48,994 nt of DNA. Source: Candidatus Aquidulcis sp. GTDB taxonomy: Bacteria; Chloroflexota; Anaerolineae; Anaerolineales; UBA4823. Below the pieces are notes generated by a model. The model made no database searches and was not told where the DNA came from. It saw only the letters and a program-made list of their open reading frames with translations. The position numbers and the translations under genes were made by a program. The stretch spans positions 1 to 48,994 of the forward strand of contig DYIZ01000029.1 in NCBI GenBank assembly GCA_020723385.1, given 5' to 3'. The stretch's first letter is position 1, and each line of letters begins with the position of its first letter. Positions 2,209 to 26,091 of this stretch are shown here, piece after piece.

Positions 2209-4440
2209 CTACCGCCCAAACCAGATATACCGCAAGTCTCTCAGGGACGCATCATAGTGAGCGATGTGGGGATAGCCGTATACATCCAGCACAAGGGATG
2301 TGTACCAACCCACGTTCCCGCTTTCCACCGTTTCGATGATCCACTGCGAACCATTCCACCAGGCGTACTCGAGGGTATCGTTGGTGCTGTCGTGGTAGCT
2401 GATGTGCGGCCGGTTGGCGTTGTCGAGCGCCAACGAGGGAAAGAAGCCCAGATTGCCATCGCTGTCTACGGTTTGGGTGATCCAGGTCGAGCCGTCATGG
2501 TAAGCATAACGGAGGTCGTCGTTGACGTATTCGCGGTAGGCGATATGCGGGTGGTCGTTCGTATCCATCGCCAGGGAATTGTAATAGTCAATACTTTCTG
2601 AATTATCCACCGTTTGAGTGATCCAGACCGAGCCGTTCCAGTAAGCATAATGCAGCATCAAGTTACTCAGGTCGAAGTACGAAAAGTGAGGGAGTCCGAA
2701 GCTGTCCAACGCCAGGGATGTCGGGCAAGGCTCGTAAGCGCCAACGCTGTCCACAATAGCAATCTGCCAGGCTGCGCCATCCCAATATGCGTAGCGGGTA
2801 TCGTCATTTGTGTAATAGCTGATATGAGCGTAACCGTTGCTATCCAAAGCAAGCGAAGCGCCGCCATAGAAATCGGGAACATCCGGGTCTACGGTGACGG
2901 TTTGCCAGGCTGCCCCATCCCAGGCGGTGTACTCGAGTCCGGTTGGGCCTTTGTAAGCAATGCGTGGGTAGCTGCTTCCGGTTTCCACTGCCAGCGAAGG
3001 AATGCCGAAATTGCCATATTCTTCATCTGACAAGGTTTGTATCTGCCAGGCTGATCCATCCCAGCGGGCATATTTGAGTGCATACAATTGATCGTCGAGG
3101 TAAGCGATCTGCGGGTTTCCATCGTTGTCCAGTTTTAGCGAGGCGTACTTTCCCACATTTCCCCCCTGGTTGAGAGGCTCGCTCTGCCAGGCTGTTTCGT
3201 TCCACCGATAGAGATCGAGATCGGCAGTTCTTGGGAGATGAACCAAGATCAGCGGGTTGCCTGTCCCATTCAGCGCCAGGGCTGGCGGCGCGAACAAATC
3301 CGATCCAGCCAGCCTGCTTTGGGCTGTCTGGGTTTGCCAGGCGCTCCCATCCCAGCGGGTGAACTCCACCTCGACGGTTTGCCCCACTCGGCGGAGGTAA
3401 CTGAAACCCGGTCGTCCAGCGCTGTCCAGGGCCAGGGATGGGCCGATCAAGAAGTCATCGTTGGCGACCACCGTTTGGGTCAGCCATTGGCTGCCATCGT
3501 ACTCGCCGTAGCGAATGACTGCCGTATTGGGATCCGAGTAGGTCTGGTATGCGACATGCAGAAGATCATTGTCATCAATCACGGTCGAATTGAAAAAGCA
3601 GCATTCTTGCTTCTCGATGATCTCGATATGCCATTGGCTGTCCCGCCAGGCATGTTGGAAAATGTAAGGTATCTCTCCCCATCCAGATAAACTGTAAAGG
3701 ATGTGCGGCTGGTTGGCGCTGTCCATGACGATGGAATTATTGTTGCCAACCAAGGTGCTGTAACCATTCTGACTGGCTTCGACGACTTCGATGAGCCAAT
3801 CCGCCCCTTCCCAATGTGCATACCGGAGGGAGTCTACGTAATAATCATGGTATGCGATGTGGGGGCGGTTATTGCCATCGAGCGCCAGTGATATGTGCCA
3901 GCCAACCCCTCCGTAGCCGCAATCGGCTGTCTCGGTATGCCAGGATGCGCCGTCGAAGCGCGCATATTTGAGACATTGGTTCGCTGCATCGTAGTAGGCG
4001 ATGTGGGGATGATCGGCGTTATCCAGTGATAGCGCCGCGTAGCCGCCCACACCGCCAGTGGAATCGACGATTTCGTATTGCCATCCGCTGCCATTGTCCC
4101 ATGCGTGATACAGGTTGTCTCCGCCAAAGGCGGCATGGAGGATTCCAACAGAGTCAACAGCCAGGGCGCGCTGTGTGGTGTCTTTCACATAACGCGGGCA
4201 ATCGGGGCAATCCGAATGCCAGGTTGGAGGCGGCCAGCCGTTCAGCACGATGGGCAGGTTGATGGTGGATGTCACAGAGCGGCTAACTTGCCACCCGGCA
4301 GGCTGATCGGGAGTGGCCGGGTTAACCACGGCTGCGGATACACCCTGAGAGCTGACCCAGAGCATCCCCACCGCCACAATCAGCGAGAACAGCAAGCTGA
4401 ATATGACAATCGCGCGTGGAAGAATTTCTCTCCCGATCAT
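2209..4440 (-). CDS. Secreted beta-propeller-like repeat protein (743 aa)
   Basis: A signal peptide or N-terminal anchor (hydrophobic residues about 10-36, ending near GVSAA) precedes an LPIVLNGWPPPTWH motif near residues 61-75. About 13-14 degenerate repeats of 45-50 residues follow to the C-terminus. Each repeat has the pattern SLALDxxGxPHIxYYD, then LxYAxWDGSAWQxxTVD, which resembles blades of a secreted propeller. No catalytic motif is visible. The protein aligns over nearly its whole length with the last ~690 residues of the 2188-aa protein encoded just upstream, including the PPPTWH entry and the closing LRYIWFGR versus LYAWLGR. It is therefore a paralog made by duplication. A role as an extracellular adhesin or binding protein is an inference. 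The start ATG is preceded by AGAGGAAA. Confidence 0.85.
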   Translation of the reverse strand: MIGREILPRAIVIFSLLFSLIVAVGMLWVSSQGVSAAVVNPATPDQPAGWQVSRSVTSTINLPIVLNGWPPPTWHSDCPDCPRYVKDTTQRALAVDSVGILHAAFGGDNLYHAWDNGSGWQYEIVDSTGGVGGYAALSLDNADHPHIAYYDAANQCLKYARFDGASWHTETADCGYGGVGWHISLALDGNNRPHIAYHDYYVDSLRYAHWEGADWLIEVVEASQNGYSTLVGNNNSIVMDSANQPHILYSLSGWGEIPYIFQHAWRDSQWHIEIIEKQECCFFNSTVIDDNDLLHVAYQTYSDPNTAVIRYGEYDGSQWLTQTVVANDDFLIGPSLALDSAGRPGFSYLRRVGQTVEVEFTRWDGSAWQTQTAQSRLAGSDLFAPPALALNGTGNPLILVHLPRTADLDLYRWNETAWQSEPLNQGGNVGKYASLKLDNDGNPQIAYLDDQLYALKYARWDGSAWQIQTLSDEEYGNFGIPSLAVETGSSYPRIAYKGPTGLEYTAWDGAAWQTVTVDPDVPDFYGGASLALDSNGYAHISYYTNDDTRYAYWDGAAWQIAIVDSVGAYEPCPTSLALDSFGLPHFSYFDLSNLMLHYAYWNGSVWITQTVDNSESIDYYNSLAMDTNDHPHIAYREYVNDDLRYAYHDGSTWITQTVDSDGNLGFFPSLALDNANRPHISYHDSTNDTLEYAWWNGSQWIIETVESGNVGWYTSLVLDVYGYPHIAHYDASLRDLRYIWFGR

Positions 4441-4460: not shown

Positions 4461-4551
4461 GGCGTATGGCTTATGGCGCACACGAATCATCGGAATATGC
4501 CATTCGCTATTTGCTATTTGCCATACGCCATACGCTGTTTGCCATTCGCTA
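4461..4551. repeat. Heptanucleotide inverted-arm repeat, copy 1
   Basis: The gap between the 743-aa and 2188-aa genes is built of 7-bp units. The left arm (4461-4478) has units like GTATGGC and TTATGGC. The right arm (4499-4551) has eight units in reverse orientation, such as GCCATTC, GCTATTT, GCCATAC and GCTGTTT. The arms could pair into a long imperfect hairpin. The last right-arm unit holds the TAG stop (4549-4551) of the 2188-aa gene. Related copies lie at 11141-11240 and 13782-13870. Confidence 0.85.
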
Positions 4552-7500
4552 CCGTCCGAGCCAGGCGTAAAGTTGATCTTTCATGGCTCTATCGTAGTAC
4601 GTGATGTGCGGGAAATCGTATTCGTCCAACACCAGCGAAGTGTACTCGCCAACTTGCCCGACTGCAACAGTTTCGATGATCCACGCGCTGCCGTTCCAGC
4701 GGGCGTATCTCAAACTGCGGAGATCGAGGTTGTAGTAGCTGATGTGCGGGCGGTCGGCGCTGTCCAATGCGATGGAGGGGTATGCCCCCCGCCAGGTGGA
4801 ATCTACCACCTCCTTATGCCATTGACTACCATCCCACCAGGCATATTTGATTTCCATAGATGAGTTGTCCTGGTAGCTGATGTGCGGCCGGTCAGCGCTG
4901 TCCAAAACCAGCGAGAGCATCCAGATAGTACCATCGCTATCCACTGTCTCGGTATGCCAGGCGGCGCCGTCCCACCAGGCGTATCTCAGATCGTAATTCG
5001 GATTGTAGATGATGTGCGGGCGGCCGGCGCTGTTCAGGACGATGCGGTTGTCGAAAGAGCCAGCCGGGTCTATAGTCTGGAACTGCCAGGCGGCGCCGTC
5101 CCAAAAAGCGTAACGCTGGCCCTCGGGATCGGCACGGTAGGTGATGAGCGGGCGGTCGTTGGCATCCAGGGCCAGGGAGGCGGTGCTATTGCGGCCTCGC
5201 TCCACCCCCGAGATCTGCCAGGCTGAACCAGTCCAGGATGCGTAGTGAGTCTCAGACGCCGGGGAAAAGAAATAACTGATATGCGGGCTGCCGAGGCTGT
5301 CTAATGCCAGTACGAGGTTGCCTCCTAAAGCCAATAATCCCGAGTTCGTGCTGCCTTCAACGACTGTGTTATGCCAGGCCGATCCATCCCAGGCCGCGTA
5401 CTTGACCTTGCCTCCCTGAGCATCGAAATAACCCACGTGCGGGCGACCATCGTCATCGAGCGCCAGTGAGGAATAATACCCCACATCCCCGCTTTCCCCC
5501 ACTGTTTCTGTGTTCCAGATGCTGCCGTTCGAACGTGTACAGCCAAGCAGCCCTTGTTTCTCGTCCCAATAGAGAATCTGTGGGTTGTCTGAATCATCCA
5601 AAGCCAGGGAGGTGGCCTCTGTGAAAACCCCTAGCCCGCTTGTGGCCGTTTGCATTTGCCAGGCGGAGCCATCTTTGTAAGTATAGCGCAGCTCATTGCT
5701 CGCAGGAATGCGGTAAGTGAAGCTGATGTGCGGCCGTCCGGCCGGATCCAGCACAAGTGAAGGATTATCCAAAAAGTAGTTGTTACTGATGATAGTCTCC
5801 GCAGGCTGCCATGCGCCCCCTGTGTACTCGGTGTAGAGCAGCACCGTGGTGTTGGAATCAGAGTAAGTCTGGTAGAGGAGGTGCAGGCCGCTGGCATCTG
5901 CGGCCAACGAGTTGTAATGGCAACAATCACCGGCGTGCAAGACTTCCATCTGCCATTGTGATCCATCCCAAACAGCATGTTTCAACTGGTCCGGGTTCAC
6001 GCCGCCCCAACCGCCATCATTGTAAGTGATATGTGTGACGCCGCTGCTGTCAACCGCGATATCGTTGAACTGACCCAGCCTCGAGTTGACGCCGGTTTGA
6101 CCGACTTCCACTATTGTGATGTTCCATTGTGTCCCATCCCAACGCGCCGACTTGATGTCGCCAGTGGCGTATTCGTGATAGGCGATCCGCGGGCGGTCTT
6201 GGGCATCCAGAACCAGCGAAACGTACGCGCCGGTGTTGCCGTTCGAGCAGTCAACCGTCTCGATGTGCCAATTTGCGCCATCGAAACGGCCGTACTTCAG
6301 GCAGCCGTTTCCGTCATCCTCGTAGGCAATGTGCGGATGATCGTCGCTGTCCAGGGCCAGCGACGCCCAACGGCCCACCCCGCGGCTGTCGTCCACCACC
6401 TCGTATTGCCAGCCTCCCCCGTTATCGAAGGCGTGGTAGAGATGGTCGCCGCCGTAGGCCGCATGCAAATGATCGGCGCTATCTACGGCCAGGCTGCGCA
6501 GCGACACATTTTGGATGTACAGCGGCGCATCCACAACCTGGAAGTGCCAGGTGGGAGGCGGCCAATCTCGCTGGATGACCGGCAGATAGAGATAGTATGT
6601 TGGCGGCGAAAAATGTTTGACAGCCAGGTTGTTGCTCTCCCGGCTTTCGGCAATCAGATTGTCAGGGTCGGCTTTGACCCACAGGGAGGTGGCCCCCTCG
6701 GGGAGCGCCAGCCCGATGGTTTGGCTCCCACCGGGGGCGATATCGCCCATGTTTCCGTTGAGCAGCACAGTTCCCGTGATGCCGTCCTGCCAAACTGTCA
6801 GCGCAACAGCCGTCGCGGTGGTCACGCCGGTGTTGTGTATTGTCACCGTGACCGTTTCGCCGATTTGAATGTCGCTGGCGTCCAGCGTCAGATCGGGCAG
6901 AACCCCAAAAGCACCGTAGTCGGCGTTGTTGGTCTCATTGGATTCGGGGACGACCCCGGTGTCATCGGCCACAGCCCAGAAGGTGTCGCCCAGGCCGGCC
7001 AGTGTGTATGGGTCAGCCAGCGCCTGCCAGATGGTGATCTGTTCGCCCGGCGCCAGGTTATTCCCCAGGCTGACTGCGCCCAACATCGTTCCAGTGGCGG
7101 GGTCGCCGGCGCGGAAGATAACGGGGAAGGGCGCGATGGCCGGCGAGTAGCCCGCGTTGATGATGGCCGCGGTGAGGGTTATCCTGTCGGTGCTGTGGAT
7201 GCTGTGCGCCCAGTCCACCCTCAAATCGGGCAAGACTGCGCCGCGCGTAGCCTGGTTGTTGGCTTCGTTGTCCTCCGGGATGGCATTGGCCGGGTCAACG
7301 ATGACGTAAACGGTGTGCGGGTTGGCGCCTGCCGGAACGCTCCAGGCGACGCTGACAGTATCCGTCACCCCGGAGCGGAAGGGGGAATCGAGGGGCTGTG
7401 ATGCCCCGATTTGCGTCCCCCCGGCGCCAGGATCGCCATCGTAGAAAGCCGCGACCCCGCCGGTCACGGCGAAATCGCCCAGGTTGTGGACGGTCGCACT

Positions 7501-10500
7501 GATGATGACGCCAGTCCCGGGGGCAGGATTCTCCACCGAGAAGGCGATATCTTCACTCCCGATGGCGAGATCGGTTTCGAAATCGTAGCTCAACAGGTAA
7601 AGATCGGTCTGCTCCATTTCAGGGACGTGGGTGACGGTGATGGTGAGGGTGGGGGAAATCTGGTAGGTTTGCGTGATCCACTCCATGGCGACTTTCTGGT
7701 AAGCCATGTACAGTGTGCCGTCGGCGGCGAAGGCCGGGGAGATGGCTTCTTCCAGTGAGTCGTCATCGGTCAATTGATGGTCGGCGCTCCAGGAGGTGTG
7801 CGCCGCGTCGTAGACAGCGTAGGATACGTCCACGCCTTCGACGGTGAGGCTTTGCCAGAGCAAGGCAAGGTTGCCGCTGGGGTCGGGCAGCAGTTTGAAG
7901 TCGAGGAACGCGCCGGAGGTGGAATCGGGGCGCACGGGGGCGGGACTGCCCGCCCAGCCGGTCTGCATAACCAGCGCGCCGTCGCGCAGCCAGACGATGA
8001 CCGGCTGGCCGCTGCCGTCGAAGGCCAGAGTGGGGGTGGTGTCGGTGATGGCATCGCTGGTGAGCGGCATCACGGCGCTCCAGGCTGCGCCATTCCAGGC
8101 GGCGTAGATCAGCTCGGTGTCGCTGCCGGTAAGCGGGTCGCCGTCAGCATCTTTTGCCATCACGATGGCGGCCTGGCTGGTGGAGTAAACGGCCAAATCT
8201 ACATCGATGATGTTTGTCAGGCCGGTCGCCGCGGCTGCCGGGGCATTCCAGGCGCTGCCATTCCACACGGCGTAAGTGAGGGTGATGGGGTGTCCGACAT
8301 CGCCCATGAAATCGTAACCATCGCTGGTACGCCACAACGCCAGCAGCGCGCCGTCGCCGCCGCGCGCCAGCTCGGGGGCCGTGTCGAGGAGGCTGTTGCC
8401 CGTCAGGTTGGCGGGCGCAGACCAATCAACGCCATCCCACTCAGCCCACCCGATTTCGAATGAATTGGTGTAGGTGACATCCAGCGAAGGCGAGATGTGA
8501 ACGGTGTTGGTGCGCTCCCACACGGCCAGCGCGTCGCCGTCGGTATCGAAGGCTACCTGGGGGGCGAAATCCTGGAAGTTGTCGTCGGTCAGGGTGTCTG
8601 TGATCCAGGCCGAGCCGGTCCAGTTGGCGGCGTAGATTTCTTCGCCCTGGGCGTTCGGCTTCAGAGGATCATCGTGAACCCAAAGAACCATCTGCTGCCC
8701 GTCGGCGCGCACCGCCAGAGCGGGATTCGCCAGCGGGAATACATTGGTGACGAGCGGGGCTTCAGATGCAACTTCCTCCTCTAACCCATCTCCCTTCAGG
8801 GGGGAGGTACTGCCTATAAAGGACGCATAATCTATACCCACGTAATCGCGTTCCATGAGATGCCAGGTGGGGCCGCTTGCAGCCCGGTCTTCCCCTTCGT
8901 CGCTGACGCAAGCGCCGGCTGGCAGCGAGCAGGTGACGCCGCGCTCCCAGGCGCCCTCGAACTTCCACACGGTGAGGACGGCTTTGGCGTATAGGCGGAT
9001 CGCCAGCTCTTTGAGGTAACCCCAGGCCCCCGCAGGCGGCACCTGCACGACGACGCGCGGCGTGCCGCCGCCGGTGAGGCTGGCTTTGAGCGATTCGAAC
9101 ACTTGCAGCGTCAGGGTCAGCGACATGTCAATCAGCCCCGTGCCGCCGCCGCTGTCGAATTTGAGTACATCGTTTTCGTCTTTGAAATTGGCGTTGATGT
9201 CTATCCGGGGGCCGATGGCGGCTTCGACGTTGGCTTTGCTGTTGAACCATTTGACGATGCGCCCTACCAGCCACCATTCTTCGGCAGCCCTGAGGCCGGG
9301 CACCAGGTCGGCGATGCCCATTTCCTTTTTGATCTCCCCCCCGATGTTGAGTGCGAAGGAGGCGTCGGTCAGGTCGAGACCTGACGGCGGGCCGAGCTTG
9401 ACATTGCCAACGCCTGAGACGCCGCCGGAGAGGGTTGCATTTGGGGTCAGTTCGACGCCGGTATTGCCGCTCAGGCTGACCGAGCCGCTGCCATCCGAGC
9501 AGGCTTCCGCACCGACTTTGGCATAAGTCTCGACGATTCCCATGTTAGCGCCGCCCAGGTAGGGCACCCAGCCGGGAACGTGAACTTGCGCCTGGAAGTG
9601 GGGATCGGGATATTCGATGTCCCGCGCGTATTTGACGGTCATGGCTTGCAGGTCAACCTGGAAATTGCCCAGGGCGAACTGGGTGATCCAGTTTGGGATG
9701 GGAAAAACCATTGGCTCGAGCGTATACGGATCGGACTCGATGCCCTCGCTGTTGATGGCGGTGATTTCCAGTGTGTTGCCCCCACCGCTGAGGCTGGCAT
9801 TGAAGTCGCTGCCCATGTTGTAGGTATGATCGGCGCCCCATTCCTGGCCGGTTTCCTGGATGACGTTGCCGTTCAGTTCGAACTCAACTGTTCCAAACGG
9901 GGCCACGGGCGGATCGCCGTAGGCGGTGCCGAGCCAGTTCACCTCAACGTGATAGAGATTGTCTACACTCAGGCCGGTCAGGAAATATTCCTCAAATTTG
10001 GGCGTGACTTTTTCGATGGTAGGATAGCAGGTGCCGGTGGTGAATTTGAAGGTGTTAACCCCTGGATCGCGGCATATTTCGTATTTTACATCTATAGCGT
10101 CAATTTCCCACTCGTACAGGGCTGGCGTGCCATCTTCCAGGCAGGTGATGTCGTTCGGGCCGAAGAGCAGGTTGCGGGTGCAGTTGGTTCCATCGCCGAC
10201 ATCCTCCCACGATCCGCCCTGTTTGCGAAGGTATGCCTCGTAATAGATGTCGGTGGTTTCAGGATCGGGGTTGGCGTTGCAAACCAGGCCGCTGTTGTAA
10301 TCGCTCCAACTGAGCAGCGGCCCCAACCCACCCTGAGATATGATGATATCCTTAGCGCCGTCGGTGGGCGTCGGGAAGACGGTCAGCTCGAGAATGGGGG
10401 CCACCGGAAGCTGGAAACCCATATCGGTGTTTGGAGCGCCATCGCTCCATTGGACCTGGCCGGTGAAATTGACCGACGACTGGGGAGTGGTATAGAGCGA

Positions 10501-11115
10501 GCAGGTGGCCTCGATCATGATCACGATATACGCCTCGAGCCATTGGGGCGTTGCCGGCGGGGTAAATGTGCCTGTGCAGATGATTTTATGCGCCTCGGCC
10601 TCTTCGTGGCATTCGGTGATGTATTCGTCTCCCTCCATGAAGTCGAGCAGGATTTCGTAGGGGTAGGGATAGACCAGCTCCGTCACAAAGCTGAGATCGT
10701 CGTCAGTTGGATCCATATAGGCGCTCCAGGTTGCCTGGAGGGTGAGCTGCTCACCGGGGTAGGTGGCGTCGCTTGCCAGGCGGCGGGTTCCATCCGGGTT
10801 GAGAGGGATGATCTGCGCGGGCGCGCCGGGAGTGATCGAGGGGAGATTGTCCAACGGAGGAAAGACAACCCCCTGTGTTCTTCCCGGCTGGGATGCGAAG
10901 GGCGCAGATGACCAGGAATCCAGGGCAGCGGTCGAAGGGTCATCTCCTCGATCCGCCTGGTAATCCTGCTGCGCCTGGGCTGCCGCGTCTGCCAGCGGGT
11001 TGCCGCCCCCCATGGGGCTGTTGCCGCTCAGGGCGGGATTCGCCCCCAGGCACAGGCACAATACGATGAGCATTGCGATGATGCCAGTTCGGAAAAGTTT
11101 GGTTATGGCATTCAT
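4549..11115 (-). CDS. Giant secreted CARDB/beta-propeller surface protein (2188 aa)
   Basis: The protein starts with a signal peptide (residues about 1-31, LIVLCLCLGANPALSG). Several Ig-like regions and a long coil-like stretch lie before residue 800. A propeller-like region covers about 800-1180, with repeats such as QVAFDTDGDALAVWER. Three tandem CARDB domains follow at about 1190-1500 (DLAIGSEDIAF, DLRVDWAHSI and DLTLDASDIQI, each ending near a DxxNxIxExxExNN motif). After a YLYLPVIQRDWPPPTWH linker, the region from 1515 to 2188 is homologous to the 743-aa protein encoded downstream. No enzymatic motif is visible. CARDB folds are known adhesion and scaffold modules. A function in cell-surface attachment is inferred. 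The stop codon lies in a heptamer repeat, and GGAGACTCACC precedes the ATG. Confidence 0.86.
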   Translation of the reverse strand: MNAITKLFRTGIIAMLIVLCLCLGANPALSGNSPMGGGNPLADAAAQAQQDYQADRGDDPSTAALDSWSSAPFASQPGRTQGVVFPPLDNLPSITPGAPAQIIPLNPDGTRRLASDATYPGEQLTLQATWSAYMDPTDDDLSFVTELVYPYPYEILLDFMEGDEYITECHEEAEAHKIICTGTFTPPATPQWLEAYIVIMIEATCSLYTTPQSSVNFTGQVQWSDGAPNTDMGFQLPVAPILELTVFPTPTDGAKDIIISQGGLGPLLSWSDYNSGLVCNANPDPETTDIYYEAYLRKQGGSWEDVGDGTNCTRNLLFGPNDITCLEDGTPALYEWEIDAIDVKYEICRDPGVNTFKFTTGTCYPTIEKVTPKFEEYFLTGLSVDNLYHVEVNWLGTAYGDPPVAPFGTVEFELNGNVIQETGQEWGADHTYNMGSDFNASLSGGGNTLEITAINSEGIESDPYTLEPMVFPIPNWITQFALGNFQVDLQAMTVKYARDIEYPDPHFQAQVHVPGWVPYLGGANMGIVETYAKVGAEACSDGSGSVSLSGNTGVELTPNATLSGGVSGVGNVKLGPPSGLDLTDASFALNIGGEIKKEMGIADLVPGLRAAEEWWLVGRIVKWFNSKANVEAAIGPRIDINANFKDENDVLKFDSGGGTGLIDMSLTLTLQVFESLKASLTGGGTPRVVVQVPPAGAWGYLKELAIRLYAKAVLTVWKFEGAWERGVTCSLPAGACVSDEGEDRAASGPTWHLMERDYVGIDYASFIGSTSPLKGDGLEEEVASEAPLVTNVFPLANPALAVRADGQQMVLWVHDDPLKPNAQGEEIYAANWTGSAWITDTLTDDNFQDFAPQVAFDTDGDALAVWERTNTVHISPSLDVTYTNSFEIGWAEWDGVDWSAPANLTGNSLLDTAPELARGGDGALLALWRTSDGYDFMGDVGHPITLTYAVWNGSAWNAPAAAATGLTNIIDVDLAVYSTSQAAIVMAKDADGDPLTGSDTELIYAAWNGAAWSAVMPLTSDAITDTTPTLAFDGSGQPVIVWLRDGALVMQTGWAGSPAPVRPDSTSGAFLDFKLLPDPSGNLALLWQSLTVEGVDVSYAVYDAAHTSWSADHQLTDDDSLEEAISPAFAADGTLYMAYQKVAMEWITQTYQISPTLTITVTHVPEMEQTDLYLLSYDFETDLAIGSEDIAFSVENPAPGTGVIISATVHNLGDFAVTGGVAAFYDGDPGAGGTQIGASQPLDSPFRSGVTDTVSVAWSVPAGANPHTVYVIVDPANAIPEDNEANNQATRGAVLPDLRVDWAHSIHSTDRITLTAAIINAGYSPAIAPFPVIFRAGDPATGTMLGAVSLGNNLAPGEQITIWQALADPYTLAGLGDTFWAVADDTGVVPESNETNNADYGAFGVLPDLTLDASDIQIGETVTVTIHNTGVTTATAVALTVWQDGITGTVLLNGNMGDIAPGGSQTIGLALPEGATSLWVKADPDNLIAESRESNNLAVKHFSPPTYYLYLPVIQRDWPPPTWHFQVVDAPLYIQNVSLRSLAVDSADHLHAAYGGDHLYHAFDNGGGWQYEVVDDSRGVGRWASLALDSDDHPHIAYEDDGNGCLKYGRFDGANWHIETVDCSNGNTGAYVSLVLDAQDRPRIAYHEYATGDIKSARWDGTQWNITIVEVGQTGVNSRLGQFNDIAVDSSGVTHITYNDGGWGGVNPDQLKHAVWDGSQWQMEVLHAGDCCHYNSLAADASGLHLLYQTYSDSNTTVLLYTEYTGGAWQPAETIISNNYFLDNPSLVLDPAGRPHISFTYRIPASNELRYTYKDGSAWQMQTATSGLGVFTEATSLALDDSDNPQILYWDEKQGLLGCTRSNGSIWNTETVGESGDVGYYSSLALDDDGRPHVGYFDAQGGKVKYAAWDGSAWHNTVVEGSTNSGLLALGGNLVLALDSLGSPHISYFFSPASETHYASWTGSAWQISGVERGRNSTASLALDANDRPLITYRADPEGQRYAFWDGAAWQFQTIDPAGSFDNRIVLNSAGRPHIIYNPNYDLRYAWWDGAAWHTETVDSDGTIWMLSLVLDSADRPHISYQDNSSMEIKYAWWDGSQWHKEVVDSTWRGAYPSIALDSADRPHISYYNLDLRSLRYARWNGSAWIIETVAVGQVGEYTSLVLDEYDFPHITYYDRAMKDQLYAWLGR

Positions 11116-11140
11116 GGTGAGTCTCCTTTGGGTGAAATGG

Positions 11141-11240
11141 TTTATGGCTTATGGCGTATGGCTTATGGCGTCTAGCGTATGGCGAATACTGAAAGAGCGC
11201 CATACGCTATTCGCTATTTGCTATACGCCATACGCCATTT
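11141..11240. repeat. Heptanucleotide inverted-arm repeat, copy 2
   Basis: This is the longest copy. The left arm (11141-11185) has about six TTATGGC/GTATGGC units, then a short AATACTGAAAGAG centre. The right arm (11199-11240) has six exact 7-bp steps: GCCATAC, GCTATTC, GCTATTT, GCTATAC, GCCATAC, GCCATTT. The right arm is translated as the C-terminus of the metzincin gene (GVWRIANSE) and contains its TAG stop at 11207-11209. The repeat occupies the whole junction between the metzincin gene and the 2188-aa gene. Confidence 0.88.
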
Positions 11241-13768
11241 CCGTCGGCGAACACGATTTCGAAATAGCCCTCCCCGGCGGGCAGCGTCTGTTGGTCAATG
11301 ATCAGCGCGCTGCCCACCACGTCAATCCCGACCGTCGTCCACGATTGGCCGCCGTCGGCGGTGAAGCGGATCAAGGCTGGCGTGTTAGGATCGAGCCAAT
11401 GGAGGGTCAATCCCTGGGAAGATTGATCCAGCCAGGGTTTGGCAGATGGCCCGGCGGGGCTGACCAAAACCCTTTGGGCGATGGGCGTCCCCCAGCGCGT
11501 TAGCCGGACGAGAGCGACCGGCCAGCCGGGGTGTGGCACGATTACGCTGATGGATTGCGCGGTGTAACCGGCGATGTCGGCTATCCGATCCACCGCAACC
11601 GGCTGCGAGGCGAGGATAGCCCCGGCATCGTCCAGCAGTTCGATGGCATACTCGCTGAATGGAGGCGGCTGCGTGGGTGCGCGGCGTAGACCATATACCG
11701 GCAGCAGCGTGGCCGAGCCGTCGGCGCTGAACGCGGCGCGAATCCATAGGCTGTCTGTGGCCGTTAGCGCGGGCTGGCGAGCGCCGTTGTCGCGTAGAGC
11801 CTCGTACAGCTTCACGTAAACGTAATCCGAGATCCAGGTTGGCCCGGTGTGGCAATAGGACATGAGATCAACGCTGTCATCAGGGTGGTGCCAGGCGAGG
11901 AAGTAGGGCCACCAGGATAGCCGCAGACCCCATTGGCCGATATGCCCATCTGGGTAGGGATAACCTGGCTCCGGAGAGTACGAATCGCAGCCGGTGTGGA
12001 GCAACCCCATGTTGTGACCAGCCTCGTGCGCAAATATCGTCGAATCATAATCGAGACCCATCGAAATCCGGATTCCGACGAAGCCCATGCCGCCATAAGG
12101 CTCATCCCAATTCCCGCCCGAATCGTTGTCAGCGGGGATGTGGCCGTAATAGAACTGCGCCGCTGGCGCGCCGTCGGCGGTTTTGATGTCACGAACGTAA
12201 TTCAGCAGCCGCACCCATTCGGCGGGCGTTCCCAGGTTTCCGGCAAATTCAATGGGCGACCGATTGGATGTGTCAAGCCCGCTGATCGGGTAGACTTCCA
12301 TCGTCCAACTGCTGACGGTATCGGTGATATGCCCTGGGAAGTATTCGCCGGTGGGGGTGTGGGTATAGTTTACCGGTACGACTTTCACATCGAGGGGCGG
12401 CACGCTGGTGAAGGTAAACGTAGCCTGGGCTGAGTTGTTCGTCTCGTCGGTTTCTGAGAATTCATTGGCGGGATCAACGGTTGCGATCAGCGTGATCTGC
12501 CCGGAGAGCCACTCCGCCGGCAGGAGGGCGCTAAATTCGTAGTTGGTTGCCATGCCATAAGGAGGAACGACGGTCAACGTGCCGGAAAGCGGCTGCCCAC
12601 CGCGTAAGCCGGTCAACGACATTTCGATCCAATCTTCTTCCAGGTAGACGCCGCCGGTGGATTTGTTGATCTGCACCAACACTGCCCCTGGACGGCTCTC
12701 GACCAGCGGGACGGTGTTTCCTTCGGTCTGCACTGCCTGGCTGATCTTGATCCGGGCAATGGACAGGTCGAGCGGCCCACCGGTGAAGTCCAGATCGCCC
12801 CAACTGGGAGGGGCAGTGACGTGTATGTTCCGCGGGAAGAAGACAAAGGCATTTTTACTGGCGGTGAGGTTATAGTCGCCGGGGGGTAGCCCATTGAACG
12901 CGAAACTGCCATCGCTGCCGGTGGTGATACTCCAGCCGTTGTCGTTGTGGATGGTCACGCCCGCTATAGGCGCGCCGCCGCTGTCGGTTACGCGGCCTGT
13001 AAGGGAATAAGGGTAAGGCTTTCGCGCGATGGGCAAGTAAACCTCGAATGGAAGGCTCGCGAAATCCTGTCCAGCGGCATTGGGCGGGAGGCTGACGGTG
13101 CGCGTGGGCGGCGCGAAGGTATAGCCGCCCAGGGTCGGGGTGAGCGTGTAAGTCCCGCTGAGAACGTTGGTGATGGTGTAATAGCCGCCGGCGTTCGTCG
13201 TGGCGCTCAGGGCGCTGGAGGCCGAGACGACGACGCTGCCAAGCGGCGTGTGGCTGCTGGAGGTCACGCGCCCGGAGATGAGATAGGTTTTTGGGGTTTT
13301 GGGCGCACCCGTGAAATCTTGCCCGGCGGCGTCCGGCGGAACGCTGACCGTGCGCGTGGGCGGCGTGAAATCGAAGCCAGCCAGCGTGGGCGTCAGCGTG
13401 TAGGCGCCGGTGATCAGATTCGTGAAGGTGTAGAAACCGCTGGCGTCCGTGGCGGCGTTGAAACCACCCGTGGCGGAGATCACCACGCCGGGGAGGGGAT
13501 CGTTCTCGGCGGTGGACACGCGGCCGGAGATGGCGAGCGCCCCGGTGACAACCCGGGTATCGAGGGTCTCGGCGGATTGGAGACTCCCTTCCGGCCAAAG
13601 GGGGTCTCCACCCCCGGCGGCTGAGGCGCGCCAGGTGACGATGAGCGCCGTCGAGGCCAGGGCCGCGCCGATCAGGATTGAGATCAATACCGATAAGCGC
13701 GGGGAGAAACCGAGGTTGGCGATACGTTGCCATGAAGAATTGGGCAGGGTTCGTTTTGTGAGAAGCAT
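11207..13768 (-). CDS. Membrane-tethered or secreted metzincin-type zinc metalloprotease
   Basis: This 853-aa protein has an N-terminal hydrophobic segment (about residues 25-50). Two carboxypeptidase-regulatory-like domains follow (about 78-150 and 160-235, both ISGRV...GxYTxTPTLxGxxFxPPTRTVS). Next come a VYLPIARKP linker near 245, a third such domain (SLTGRVTDSGGAPIAGV) and a CARDB-like region (about 340-460). The catalytic part carries HEAGHNMGLLH (His581, Glu582, His585, His591), the metzincin HExxHxxGxxH zinc site. Met636 in DLMSYCH is the likely Met-turn, so the active site appears intact. Family knowledge predicts an extracellular endopeptidase. The substrate is unknown, and the neighbouring giant surface proteins are possible targets or partners. 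The last nine residues are encoded by a heptamer repeat. GTGAGGTAACCCG precedes the ATG. Confidence 0.87.
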   Translation of the reverse strand: MLLTKRTLPNSSWQRIANLGFSPRLSVLISILIGAALASTALIVTWRASAAGGGDPLWPEGSLQSAETLDTRVVTGALAISGRVSTAENDPLPGVVISATGGFNAATDASGFYTFTNLITGAYTLTPTLAGFDFTPPTRTVSVPPDAAGQDFTGAPKTPKTYLISGRVTSSSHTPLGSVVVSASSALSATTNAGGYYTITNVLSGTYTLTPTLGGYTFAPPTRTVSLPPNAAGQDFASLPFEVYLPIARKPYPYSLTGRVTDSGGAPIAGVTIHNDNGWSITTGSDGSFAFNGLPPGDYNLTASKNAFVFFPRNIHVTAPPSWGDLDFTGGPLDLSIARIKISQAVQTEGNTVPLVESRPGAVLVQINKSTGGVYLEEDWIEMSLTGLRGGQPLSGTLTVVPPYGMATNYEFSALLPAEWLSGQITLIATVDPANEFSETDETNNSAQATFTFTSVPPLDVKVVPVNYTHTPTGEYFPGHITDTVSSWTMEVYPISGLDTSNRSPIEFAGNLGTPAEWVRLLNYVRDIKTADGAPAAQFYYGHIPADNDSGGNWDEPYGGMGFVGIRISMGLDYDSTIFAHEAGHNMGLLHTGCDSYSPEPGYPYPDGHIGQWGLRLSWWPYFLAWHHPDDSVDLMSYCHTGPTWISDYVYVKLYEALRDNGARQPALTATDSLWIRAAFSADGSATLLPVYGLRRAPTQPPPFSEYAIELLDDAGAILASQPVAVDRIADIAGYTAQSISVIVPHPGWPVALVRLTRWGTPIAQRVLVSPAGPSAKPWLDQSSQGLTLHWLDPNTPALIRFTADGGQSWTTVGIDVVGSALIIDQQTLPAGEGYFEIVFADGNGVWRIANSE

Positions 13769-13781
13769 CGGGTTACCTCAC

Positions 13782-13870
13782 ATGGCTTATCGTGTATGGC
13801 CTATGGCGTATGGCGAATACCGAAAGAGCCATACGCTGTTTGCCATTCGCTATACGGTAGAGCTATTCGC
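13782..13870. repeat. Heptanucleotide inverted-arm repeat, copy 3
   Basis: The left arm has units ATGGCTT, ATCGTGT, ATGGCCT, ATGGCGT and ATGGCGA (13782-13816). A centre of ATACCGAAAGA is followed by a right arm of GCCATAC, GCTGTTT, GCCATTC and GCTATAC (13828-13855), then CTATTCGC. The TAG stop (13863-13865) of the 81-aa gene lies at its edge in the same GCGAATAG context as the metzincin stop. Confidence 0.85.
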
Positions 13871-14108
13871 AATCTCTTGCTGTTTGTTCTTCGCTGGCTG
13901 GAGGCTCGGACTGCGCCTCATCAGCATGGGTGAGTTGTTCGGCCAGGAAATTTGCCAGCGCTTCGATACTGCCAAACCCTTGTTTTTCCTGGCGGTTTAC
14001 ATCTTCGAGGCTGAATCGCCATACTCCCGGCTGTTTGCGGGATGCTGGGCGCTCCTGCCAGGCGCGCAATAAATAAGCGAGATAACGGGAAACAGAGGGT
14101 GTGTTCAT
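13863..14108 (-). CDS. Small conserved-looking protein (81 aa), unknown function
   Basis: This 81-residue protein begins MNTPSVSRYLAYLLRAWQERP, followed by WRFSLEDVNRQEKQGFGSIEALANFLAEQL and a short acidic tail. The pattern YLLRxW...WRxSLEDxxxxxxxGFxSLExLxxFL recalls small uncharacterised proteins I associate with Chloroflexota, but I cannot name a family. No signal peptide or membrane segment is visible. AAGGAGACG precedes the ATG. It is transcribed divergently from the SARP-type regulator, with only 91 bp between the start codons, so the two may share a control region. It heads the run of secreted-protein genes leftward. A regulatory or accessory role is possible but not shown. Confidence 0.7.
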   Translation of the reverse strand: MNTPSVSRYLAYLLRAWQERPASRKQPGVWRFSLEDVNRQEKQGFGSIEALANFLAEQLTHADEAQSEPPASEEQTARDCE

Positions 14109-23257: not shown

Positions 23258-23642
23258 CTCGATAGCATCCTTTGACTTTACCGCCTCACCAACGGCAGGA
23301 ACAGCCTTCGGGCAACCATCACCTCCAGGTTGTCGCTGTCATTGGCCGGGCTGGCCTCCGGGCCAGCCGAGGCGATTTGCAGCGTCACAGAGTAGCGCGT
23401 CCCGTAGGGATCGTCGGGAACGCTAACCTGCAACAGAAACTCGCCGCTCTCCCACAGGCCGATGTCGGGCAGTTGCCAGGTGATGAGGTTCCCGTTGATG
23501 GTCGGCGTGATTCCAGATGTATCGCCAACGTAGGTCAGGCTGACTCCCAGGGTGGCGGTAATCGTGACCGACGAGGCGGTGGTCGCCCCCAGGTTGCCGA
23601 ACGCCACCGGGATGGCCGCGCCCCCCTCCGGCGGCGCGCCAA
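23238..23642. repeat. Long direct repeat, copy B (about 405 bp)
   Basis: This is the partner of 18429-18833. Here both flanking reading frames are intact: the block holds the 3' end of the SBBP gene, the intergenic spacer and the first seven codons of the WD40 lipoprotein gene. This copy is therefore the likely source of the duplication. Confidence 0.85.
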
Positions 23643-26091
23643 CCAGCGGGGGAGCGTCCACCCAGGCGTCCACATCCCCGGTATCCGGCGCGACTGTCAG
23701 GAATTTCGCCGCAAAAACGTCGCTCACGCCATTGAAAGTGGTATCGAATGCTCCGGCGGTCACTGGAAAATCCTCGGTGTCAGTCTCTCCTACAACATAA
23801 GCGATGCCCGCTTCCGGGACGGCAATGCCATGTCCGGAGCTGCTCGGCTGCCCGCCAGGGTTGGTTGCCCCACCCAGAAAGGTGCTGTAAACCAGATCGC
23901 CAGCGCCCTGCCCGCCCAGGTGGAGGCGCGTTAGCACGGCTTCGTAATAATCTGTATCCAGCGTGGAATCGAGCGCCCCCGGAGTGATCGGATAACCTTT
24001 GTCGGACCAGCTATCGCTGGAAACGTACACATCGCCGCTGCCATCAATGGCAATGTCAGCGCCGTCCCAGGCTTCGACGAAATTGCCGCCCAGGAAAGTC
24101 GAGTAGAGCAGATCGGACGCGCCGTTCCCGGCCAGGTTGAACTTGGCGATGAACAAGTCGGAGCTATTGCCGAAGAGCGGCCGCCAATTACACCCGCCAT
24201 CCGTGCCGCAAGTTGTATCGAAAGCGCCAGCGGTGGTCGGGAAACTGACGCCATCGGTCCTCCCGACGATGTAAACATAACCGGCGCTGTCGCGGGCGAT
24301 GCCCAACCCTTCGTCCCATCCGCTGACCCCCGAAACCGGATCCGGGCCGATCAGAGTGGCGTACATCAGATCGTTTGCGCCATTGCCCGCGGGGTCGAAT
24401 TTTATGACAAATGCTTCGTAATCCCCGATGGTGGTGACCGGCCCAGGGTCATACGCACCGGGCGTGGTGGGGAAGTCGAAAAACTCCGCGCCGCCTCCGG
24501 ACTGCCGGTAATAACCGGTTATGTAGGCGACGCCGTTTTCGTCAACGACGATATCCTCGCCGCGTTCTTCCCAGGCGCCGCCGATGAAGGTGCAATACAG
24601 CAGGTCAGCGGCCCCGTTTCCGGCGGGATTCAGCTTTGCCAGGAAGATATCGTCATTCATCCCCCAATCCTCGTGAGAATAGACCCGCTTGTAAGCGCCC
24701 GGCGTGGTGGGAAAATCGTAGGAGTCGGCGAAGCCGGTGGTGTAGACCACGCCCTGGCTGTCCACGGCAATTCCATAGCCCACATCCTCGCCGCCAGCGG
24801 TGACGCCATAAGGCAGGTACGCACCGCCCAGGTAGGTGCTGTAATCGAGCGAGCCGCTTGTATCGAGTTTGGCGATGAATACATCCGAGCGGCAGTACCA
24901 ATTCCGGCAGTTTGGGTCGGCATTTGGGTTGAGATTGTGGGTAGTATCGTAGGCGCCCTGGGTGACGGGGAAATCCGCCGACCAGGTATAGCCAGTGAGG
25001 TAAGCAGAGCCATCCTGCCCGATGGCGATGGCGTTGCCGGCCTCGCTCACCCAGCCTTCCTGATAAACGTGGCTGCCTCCCAGGAATGTAGAGTAAAGCA
25101 GATTCTTCCCATCCAGCGATAATTTGGAGACGAATATATCGGAATCGCCGCCGATAACCTCGTCCAGGCCGGGAGTGGTTGGGAAATTGGCTGACATGGT
25201 GTAGCCGATGATGTACAGCCCGGTCTCATCCACGGCGATATCTTTGGCGTCGTCGTAACTCGCCCCGCCGAGGAAAGTGCTGAAGGCGAGGGTGGCGGGG
25301 GAGTCGGCGGGAGTGGCAGGTGGCAGGTCGAAGTTGGCAGGTGGCAGGTGGAAAGTGGCAGGTTGAAGGTTGAAGGTTGAAGGTTGTGAGGGGGAAAGCG
25401 CCAGTTGATAACCTTCAGCCTGCAACGCGGACAGGGCGAATTCGCCCAGGGCGGTGGTCAAGCGCAAGGCATTGCCATCCACTGAGACGGACTCTGCTCC
25501 TTCGACGCGCAACTGCACATCATCGAAAGTTGAGCGCTGCTCGGATACAAGCCGCCAGCGCCATTGATTGGCCTCCCCCGTGATTTCCAGGTCAATCCCT
25601 GGGTACAAATCAACATAGCGCACGCCGCCCCACACGGGCACATTGGTTTGCCATTGGGTGGAATCGCTGCCAATGTAGTAGTTTATGCGTATATCCAACC
25701 GGTCGAGGGGTTCCATCTGGGGATGGGGATTCGCGCCTGGGAAGGAGAGTTTCAAGTTAACAAGTTGGAAGGTTGAAGAGCCTGCCCTGAGCTTGTCAAA
25801 GGGTTGAATGTTGGTATGGTGTGAACCTTCAACCTGAAACTTTTCAACCTTCAACGGATCGGTCTTCAACTGAGAAATCCAGATCGCATCCTCCGCCAGC
25901 CAGATTTCTACACCTCCGCCTCGCACCAAAAAACGAGCTTCAGGCGCGAATTGGCCGGTGTTCTCGATGAATTGGAGTGCGCCGGTGAATTCCCCAGGCG
26001 CGGCGCTCGCCTCGGCGGGCGGATGGCTGGTAAGCGGTGAGAAAATGAGCGATAAAACGATCAGCGTCACAACAACAGTTTTTAGTTTCAT
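23278..26091 (-). CDS. Secreted DUF7948/SBBP beta-propeller protein
   Basis: This 937-aa protein has a signal peptide (about residues 1-31), then a DUF7948-like domain (FIENTGQFAPEARF near 41, and VPVWGGVRYVDLYPGIDLEI near 155). SBBP-type propeller repeats follow from about 270 to 800 (YSTFLGG...DIAVDxxGxVYxxGxTxSxxFPTTPGAYD). A C-terminal DUF11-like domain ends in RRLFLPLVRR. Two tracts of short repeats are inserted in frame. One encodes PFDKLRAGSS inside the DUF7948 region. The other encodes 7-residue units FNLQPAT, FHLPPAN and FDLPPAT in the linker before the propeller. An extracellular structural or binding role is expected and no catalytic motif is seen. AGGAGACC precedes the ATG. It is divergent from the FadR-like regulator at 26299. 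Confidence 0.87.
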   Translation of the reverse strand: MKLKTVVVTLIVLSLIFSPLTSHPPAEASAAPGEFTGALQFIENTGQFAPEARFLVRGGGVEIWLAEDAIWISQLKTDPLKVEKFQVEGSHHTNIQPFDKLRAGSSTFQLVNLKLSFPGANPHPQMEPLDRLDIRINYYIGSDSTQWQTNVPVWGGVRYVDLYPGIDLEITGEANQWRWRLVSEQRSTFDDVQLRVEGAESVSVDGNALRLTTALGEFALSALQAEGYQLALSPSQPSTFNLQPATFHLPPANFDLPPATPADSPATLAFSTFLGGASYDDAKDIAVDETGLYIIGYTMSANFPTTPGLDEVIGGDSDIFVSKLSLDGKNLLYSTFLGGSHVYQEGWVSEAGNAIAIGQDGSAYLTGYTWSADFPVTQGAYDTTHNLNPNADPNCRNWYCRSDVFIAKLDTSGSLDYSTYLGGAYLPYGVTAGGEDVGYGIAVDSQGVVYTTGFADSYDFPTTPGAYKRVYSHEDWGMNDDIFLAKLNPAGNGAADLLYCTFIGGAWEERGEDIVVDENGVAYITGYYRQSGGGAEFFDFPTTPGAYDPGPVTTIGDYEAFVIKFDPAGNGANDLMYATLIGPDPVSGVSGWDEGLGIARDSAGYVYIVGRTDGVSFPTTAGAFDTTCGTDGGCNWRPLFGNSSDLFIAKFNLAGNGASDLLYSTFLGGNFVEAWDGADIAIDGSGDVYVSSDSWSDKGYPITPGALDSTLDTDYYEAVLTRLHLGGQGAGDLVYSTFLGGATNPGGQPSSSGHGIAVPEAGIAYVVGETDTEDFPVTAGAFDTTFNGVSDVFAAKFLTVAPDTGDVDAWVDAPPLVGAPPEGGAAIPVAFGNLGATTASSVTITATLGVSLTYVGDTSGITPTINGNLITWQLPDIGLWESGEFLLQVSVPDDPYGTRYSVTLQIASAGPEASPANDSDNLEVMVARRLFLPLVRR
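25312..25388. repeat. In-frame heptanucleotide array (11 units)
   Basis: Eleven consecutive 7-bp units on the plus strand run from AGTGGCA and GGTGGCA types to three exact GGTTGAA units. Because 7 x 3 = 21, the minus-strand gene reads them as a 7-residue tandem repeat (FNLQPAT, FHLPPAN, FDLPPAT). The array lies in the linker between the DUF7948 and SBBP regions. Confidence 0.88.
25750..25858. repeat. In-frame heptamer arms around an FDKLRAG element
   Basis: The left arm (25750-25777) has 7-bp units ending GTTGGAA, GGTTGAA. The right arm (25824-25858) has inverted units AACCTTC, AACCTGA, AACTTTT, CAACCTT. Between them lies CCTGCCCTGAGCTTGTCAAA (25781-25800), the minus-strand template of the FDKLRAG peptide. 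The whole insertion keeps the SBBP reading frame open. Confidence 0.8.

Follow-up and report, generated by a model that had tools for sequence, protein, structure and literature searches.

What are the inverted 7-bp repeats that lie at three junctions in a minus-strand run of genes, and why do stop codons fall within them or at their edges? The window (the whole stretch of DNA analysed, 48,994 nucleotides, contig C117 of a 6.43-Mb assembly of Candidatus Aquidulcis sp. with 239 contigs) contains the following elements and neighboring genes:

4461–4551, minus strand: element 1, with a left arm of two heptads (4464–4478), a spacer and a right arm of about six heptads (4498–4547).
11137–11240, minus strand: element 2, with about five to six left heptads, spacer GAATACTGAAAGAGC and six right heptads.
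13782–13870, minus strand: element 3, with about four left heptads (one degenerate), spacer GAATACCGAAAGA and about four right heptads.
2209–4440, minus strand: 743-aa gene downstream of element 1, whose match to DUF2510 is weak and falls short of the Pfam cut-off.
4549–11115, minus strand: gene for a 2188-aa CARDB/BNR protein, upstream of element 1, starting about 25 nt past element 2.
11207–13768, minus strand: gene for an 853-aa M66-type metzincin with CarboxypepD_reg domains, in which heptads make up the TAG and the ~10 codons before it.
13863–14108, minus strand: 81-aa ORF ending at element 3, without a Pfam match, which may not be a gene.

The three elements consist of 7-bp units in inverted arms, as originally described at these positions. 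The double-heptad pattern WATRGCNWATRGC had 16 matches in the window, every one within the three elements, against a shuffle mean of 0.06. The units follow one another in strict tandem period, as in repeats of the LSSR/STRR kind, and the suggested kinship with STRR-like heptads was upheld on this point. A center of the AATAC(T/C)GAAAGAG type had been assigned to all three copies; GAATAC(T/C)GAAAGA is common to copies 2 and 3, whereas element 1 has another center, CACACGAATCATCGGAATAT, and its left arm is limited to two heptads. Each element has a TAG in or at the edge of its right arm, as claimed: that of the 2188-aa gene (4549–4551, minus strand) lies at the array edge in heptad register, that of the metzincin (11207–11209, minus strand) lies inside the right arm, and the third (13863–13865, minus strand) lies at the array edge in a detached GCGAATAGC unit. 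Since this third TAG closes the 81-aa ORF without a Pfam match, it is weak evidence. No match above the gathering score was found in the window with Rfam 15. Another array with a 7/21-bp period (units GTGGCAG and AGGTTGA) occupies positions 25312–25398 inside a minus-strand ORF (23278–26091), where the 21-bp period preserves the reading frame.

Local duplication as the origin of the three copies was ruled out by a search of the host genome, in which the repeats are dispersed, with at least 10 two-arm copies on eight contigs (C117, C39, C46, C61, C85, C107, C138 and C172); these and other genome-wide counts come from pattern searches that may miss degenerate copies. One-arm arrays were found on contigs C50, C110, C138 and C172, and a single intragenic array on C209. 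Genes for FlgE-like, polyprenyl synthetase, DUF1706, kinase-WD40, HlyD and methyltransferase proteins flank other host-genome copies, and the link to secreted proteins therefore holds only locally. Among 396 sampled genomes of the class, 11 had strict two-arm copies and 72 had three exact GCYATWY heptads, compared with about 18 for a reversed control pattern; G155 is among the genomes richest in arrays. Beyond the class, four-heptad arrays occurred, among the matches listed, in Mesorhizobium, Phycisphaerae, Lysobacter, Gemmatimonadales and other groups, and 36 IMG/VR viral stretches (L164–L199) carried four or more GCYATWY heptads.

The elements turn over within a genus. At the tRNA-Sec junction of one genus, a two-arm element is present in G195; in G098 (L387:1314–1487) its place is taken by two other sequences, a TTGTCAATTGACAA heptad palindrome and the repeat CATTGCGAGGAGCG...GCAATGACA, and in the congener G331 by an intrinsic terminator. 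These differences at an orthologous junction indicated rapid gain and loss of elements. Elsewhere, one-arm arrays adjoin a second dispersed repeat (...TTCCATTTCAGTTGA...GGAATGACA...) at L236:7557–7814 and L239:9308–9500, which suggests that different intergenic repeats accumulate in the same gaps. G098 also contains a dispersed repeat of about 150 bp (L366:4447–4597) in at least 12 copies that are about 84% identical.

The two arms have a fixed order, which reads the same on either strand: an R arm, (NWATRGC)n or RWATRGC, is followed by an F arm, (GCYATWN)n or GCYATWY. The reverse order, F..R, had no match in 24 genomes, including all eleven with R..F copies, and the fetched loci held 54 R..F and 0 F..R pairs, although most of these loci had been chosen by R..F patterns. 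An exception was seen in Gemmatimonadales WB-IL-12 (L061, L075 and L105), which has F..R two-arm elements with a partly shared center, CTCAAAAGCCTTGGCG.

Gene contexts were taken from ORFs without annotation, so that individual starts are uncertain and stops are firmer. By these calls, gene junctions are the usual place of the host copies and of a set of 50 elements, and the repeats are thus predominantly intergenic, as are those of the LSSR/STRR kind. The proposed mapping to stop codons bore fruit: in 29 of the 50 elements (five genomes), the stop of an ORF that reads into the element lies no more than 80 nt away, and usually no more than 5 nt. The abutting stop was TAG in 17 of 27 cases, compared with 67 of 254 (26%) for other genes at these loci (p = 2e-4), and 8 of 12 edge TAGs kept the heptad register (p = 5e-5). 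In (GCGAATA)n, the R strand has TAG in all three frames and the opposite strand has no stop, and part of the TAG excess is therefore intrinsic to the repeat; yet an edge TAG is still present in G155, whose units contain no TAG. Junction types (36 codirectional, 9 convergent and 5 divergent, against a background of 125, 31 and 38) revealed no clear enrichment.

Single arms obey the same geometry. In G155, the coding strand carries the R type in single arms next to a stop (distance 0–3 nt), apart from one F arm 5 nt away; F arms are often followed directly by a ribosome-binding site. In other phyla and viral contigs, the arrays abutting stops comprised 15 R and 3 F. A loose count of 5'/3' orientation across all phyla gave a weak signal, and clarity came only when the count was restricted to arrays that abut a stop directly. 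These results show that the RWATRGC strand of each arm runs away from the adjacent gene, that the R arm begins at or a few nucleotides from the upstream stop, that the F arm commonly sits immediately 5' of the following ribosome-binding site, and that the inverted-repeat appearance arises where two facing arms share a gap.

At the metzincin junction the repeat has entered the protein. The final ~10 residues (NGVWRIANSE), rather than the nine first counted, are encoded by the repeat, and the protein ends in ...ADGNGVWRIANSE. Five homologues of its C-terminal domain, of the same family and 35–40% identical, have no heptads 3' of the stop and mostly end in a conserved terminal strand (...GSYTLDWTP, ...TLDWENTR or ...LDWENPS); in the G022 homologue, the stop is followed by a canonical terminator. 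Because the homologues keep the C-terminal strand and lack the array, this comparison shows that in element 2 the array replaced the ~10 final codons that homologues have and provides the stop of the metzincin, and thus that coding DNA gave way to an array in at least one case.

Heptads are built on a narrow core. In interior units, A3, T4, G6 and C7 are kept at about 95–100% (deviation about 1–4%), and positions 1, 2 and 5 vary freely, with mostly A/T at position 2 and mostly A/G at position 5. The dictionary differs from genome to genome: GTATGGC/TTATGGC in the host, GAATGGC/AAATGGC in G155 and GAATAGC/GAATGGC in G176. Alignment scores of an element's own arms did not exceed those of arms taken across elements, showing no excess complementarity in the host genome (16.8 own, 17.0 cross; n = 10), in G274 (15.6 and 16.6; n = 16) or in G155 (20.0 and 20.4; n = 16), and duplex energies of own and cross arms were likewise unremarkable by permutation. 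Hence the arms are complementary and fold as hairpins because both draw on one heptad dictionary. Inverted duplication of one arm and structural co-selection were rejected, as own arms are no better matched. These data show that each arm is an independent array and not half of a matched hairpin pair; the test excludes fine-tuned pairing only and is compatible with a coarse hairpin function. Adjacent heptads differed by 1.91 letters compared with 1.76 between elements, a comparison in which saturation under constraint could mask a similarity left by slippage.

Taken together, we put at about even the chance that the elements are heptanucleotide arrays of gene boundaries and represent in Anaerolineae the long heptad repeats of Xanthomonas and cyanobacteria. 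We infer a DNA-level process that would write heptads outward from conserved DNA. This may be slippage that begins at a chance seed in the boundary, for example TAGC or AATGGC; repeat addition during break repair would be an alternative to slippage. Genes invaded at the 3' end would end cleanly in the array, because TAG occurs in three frames on one strand where position 5 is A and in none in the other orientation. The effect of the arrays on mRNA is likely incidental. Plain slippage, which should leave neighboring heptads alike, is hard to square with the differences observed between them. The restriction of variation to positions 1, 2 and 5 looks like a constraint on each unit, and such a constraint (binding) or a degenerate templated addition would explain the dissimilar neighbors. 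The center RAATACYGRAAGAG, common to six host-genome elements in either orientation relative to genes, is not predicted by independent arms. The placement of F arms before starts, on the 5' side of genes, holds less well than the rule for the 3' side, and the F..R order of Gemmatimonadales WB-IL-12 also counts against this reading.

It is unlikely, in our judgment, that the elements are instead selected RNA hairpins at transcript 3' ends or between cistrons, serving as bidirectional terminator-like or mRNA-stabilising stems in the manner of REP/BIME. The long stems would fit such a role, element 2 reaching –52 kcal/mol on the sense and –65 kcal/mol on the antisense strand (z about –9), as would the location directly 3' of stop codons and the canonical intrinsic terminators at two comparable gene ends elsewhere (G331 and G022). 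However, the sense-strand fold of element 3 was unremarkable (z –1.7), and the sense strand was the stabler in only 11 of 25 oriented elements (p = 0.31). Selection on the sense RNA was rejected on this lack of strand bias. No U-tract, T-tract or terminator match was found at the elements, and they thus do not have the makeup of intrinsic terminators. The own-versus-cross permutation likewise revealed no compensatory pairing between own arms of the kind expected of a selected RNA structure, and one core sequence recurs rather than compensated alternatives. The next codirectional start codon commonly lies 0–26 nt past the element. The terminator or stabiliser role that had been suggested is therefore not sustained, lacking a U-tract, pairing specificity of own arms and a sense-strand bias.

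We give somewhat lower odds to a DNA- or RNA-binding protein that reads NWATRGC and finds a binding site in every 7 bp, which would make the arrays homotypic site clusters. The four near-invariant core positions, with W mostly at position 2 and a purine mostly at position 5 across genomes, are what such sites would show, and the same core recurs in many phyla. Against this, a candidate factor is absent, the flanking genes have no common function, matches range from 0 to more than 200 per genome within one class, and the arrays are missing at orthologous junctions of congeners.

Mobility is improbable in our view; the elements would then be palindromes of the MITE or REP type with insertion close to TAG stop codons. 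The dispersed copies, their closeness to stop codons, the turnover within a genus and the center common to six host copies in either orientation are on its side. However, copies differ, within and between genomes, in the length of their arms, the order of heptads and the spacer (with unique spacers in G155 and G274), single arms are common and fixed ends are absent, so that the fixed body of a MITE or REP is lacking. A search for the center as a mobile core at two mismatches gave as many matches as the control and so was not informative. The suggestion of mobile sequence is thus not supported for a discrete element with a fixed body. Least probable, with very little credence from us, is the telomere-like, templated addition of heptads to exposed DNA 3' ends in repair, primed for example by the stop TAG, which if true would account for the absolute inward-facing polarity, the independent arms, the genome-specific dictionary, the unit-by-unit randomness, the in-register TAG and the replaced boundary DNA.

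In many bacterial genomes no long simple repeat is commoner than the heptad, whose origin is unsettled. Our data argue that the halves of an inverted pair are separate arrays, each anchored at a gene boundary and facing outward, and not built hairpins; they also provide an example of a protein C-terminus overwritten by an array, which gave it a stop codon. For the gene-boundary arrays, two puzzles are now testable: why an AT-GC core persists when positions 1, 2 and 5 change from one unit to the next, and why so many phyla have this core in common.

Several known systems resemble these arrays. REP/BIME palindromes are intercistronic inverted repeats after stop codons with fixed bodies and a transposase partner; the elements described here are likewise intercistronic, inverted and 3' of stops, but are heptad arrays of variable length. 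A search of paper texts for the heptad sequence strings found none. According to Rehm et al. 2015 (PMC4692102), the GGGAATC heptads of Xanthomonas are mainly intergenic, with 70–75 convergent inverted pairs per genome, coding-strand arrays 0–50 bp from stop codons (overlap included) and non-coding-strand arrays before starts. Convergent pairs and coding-strand arrays at stop codons are found here too, and the original view of paired inverted arms at stop codons as unusual was therefore too strong. Unlike GGGAATC/GGGANTN, the units here are NWATRGC without G-tracts and are mixed at positions 1, 2 and 5, with TAG in register and a wide spread in Anaerolineae. In MacGregor 2015 (PMC4679880), the TAACTGA heptads of Beggiatoaceae and cyanobacteria are intergenic and patchily distributed, one strand having a stop codon in each of the three frames. 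The arrays here share these three features, whereas the TAACTGA repeats, as described there, are mostly direct and before start codons, with one inverted case in that genome. As cited in both papers, the STRR and heptad-rich long simple sequence repeats of cyanobacteria are 7-bp tandem units, heptads being the commonest class. Independent outward-pointing arms do not figure in the passages on STRR consulted, and adjacent units here showed no similarity of the slippage kind. In layout the elements here resemble the heptads of these two papers, with another unit; what is new with respect to them is the unit-by-unit independence, the in-register TAG, the explicit test of arm independence and the replacement of a protein C-terminus.
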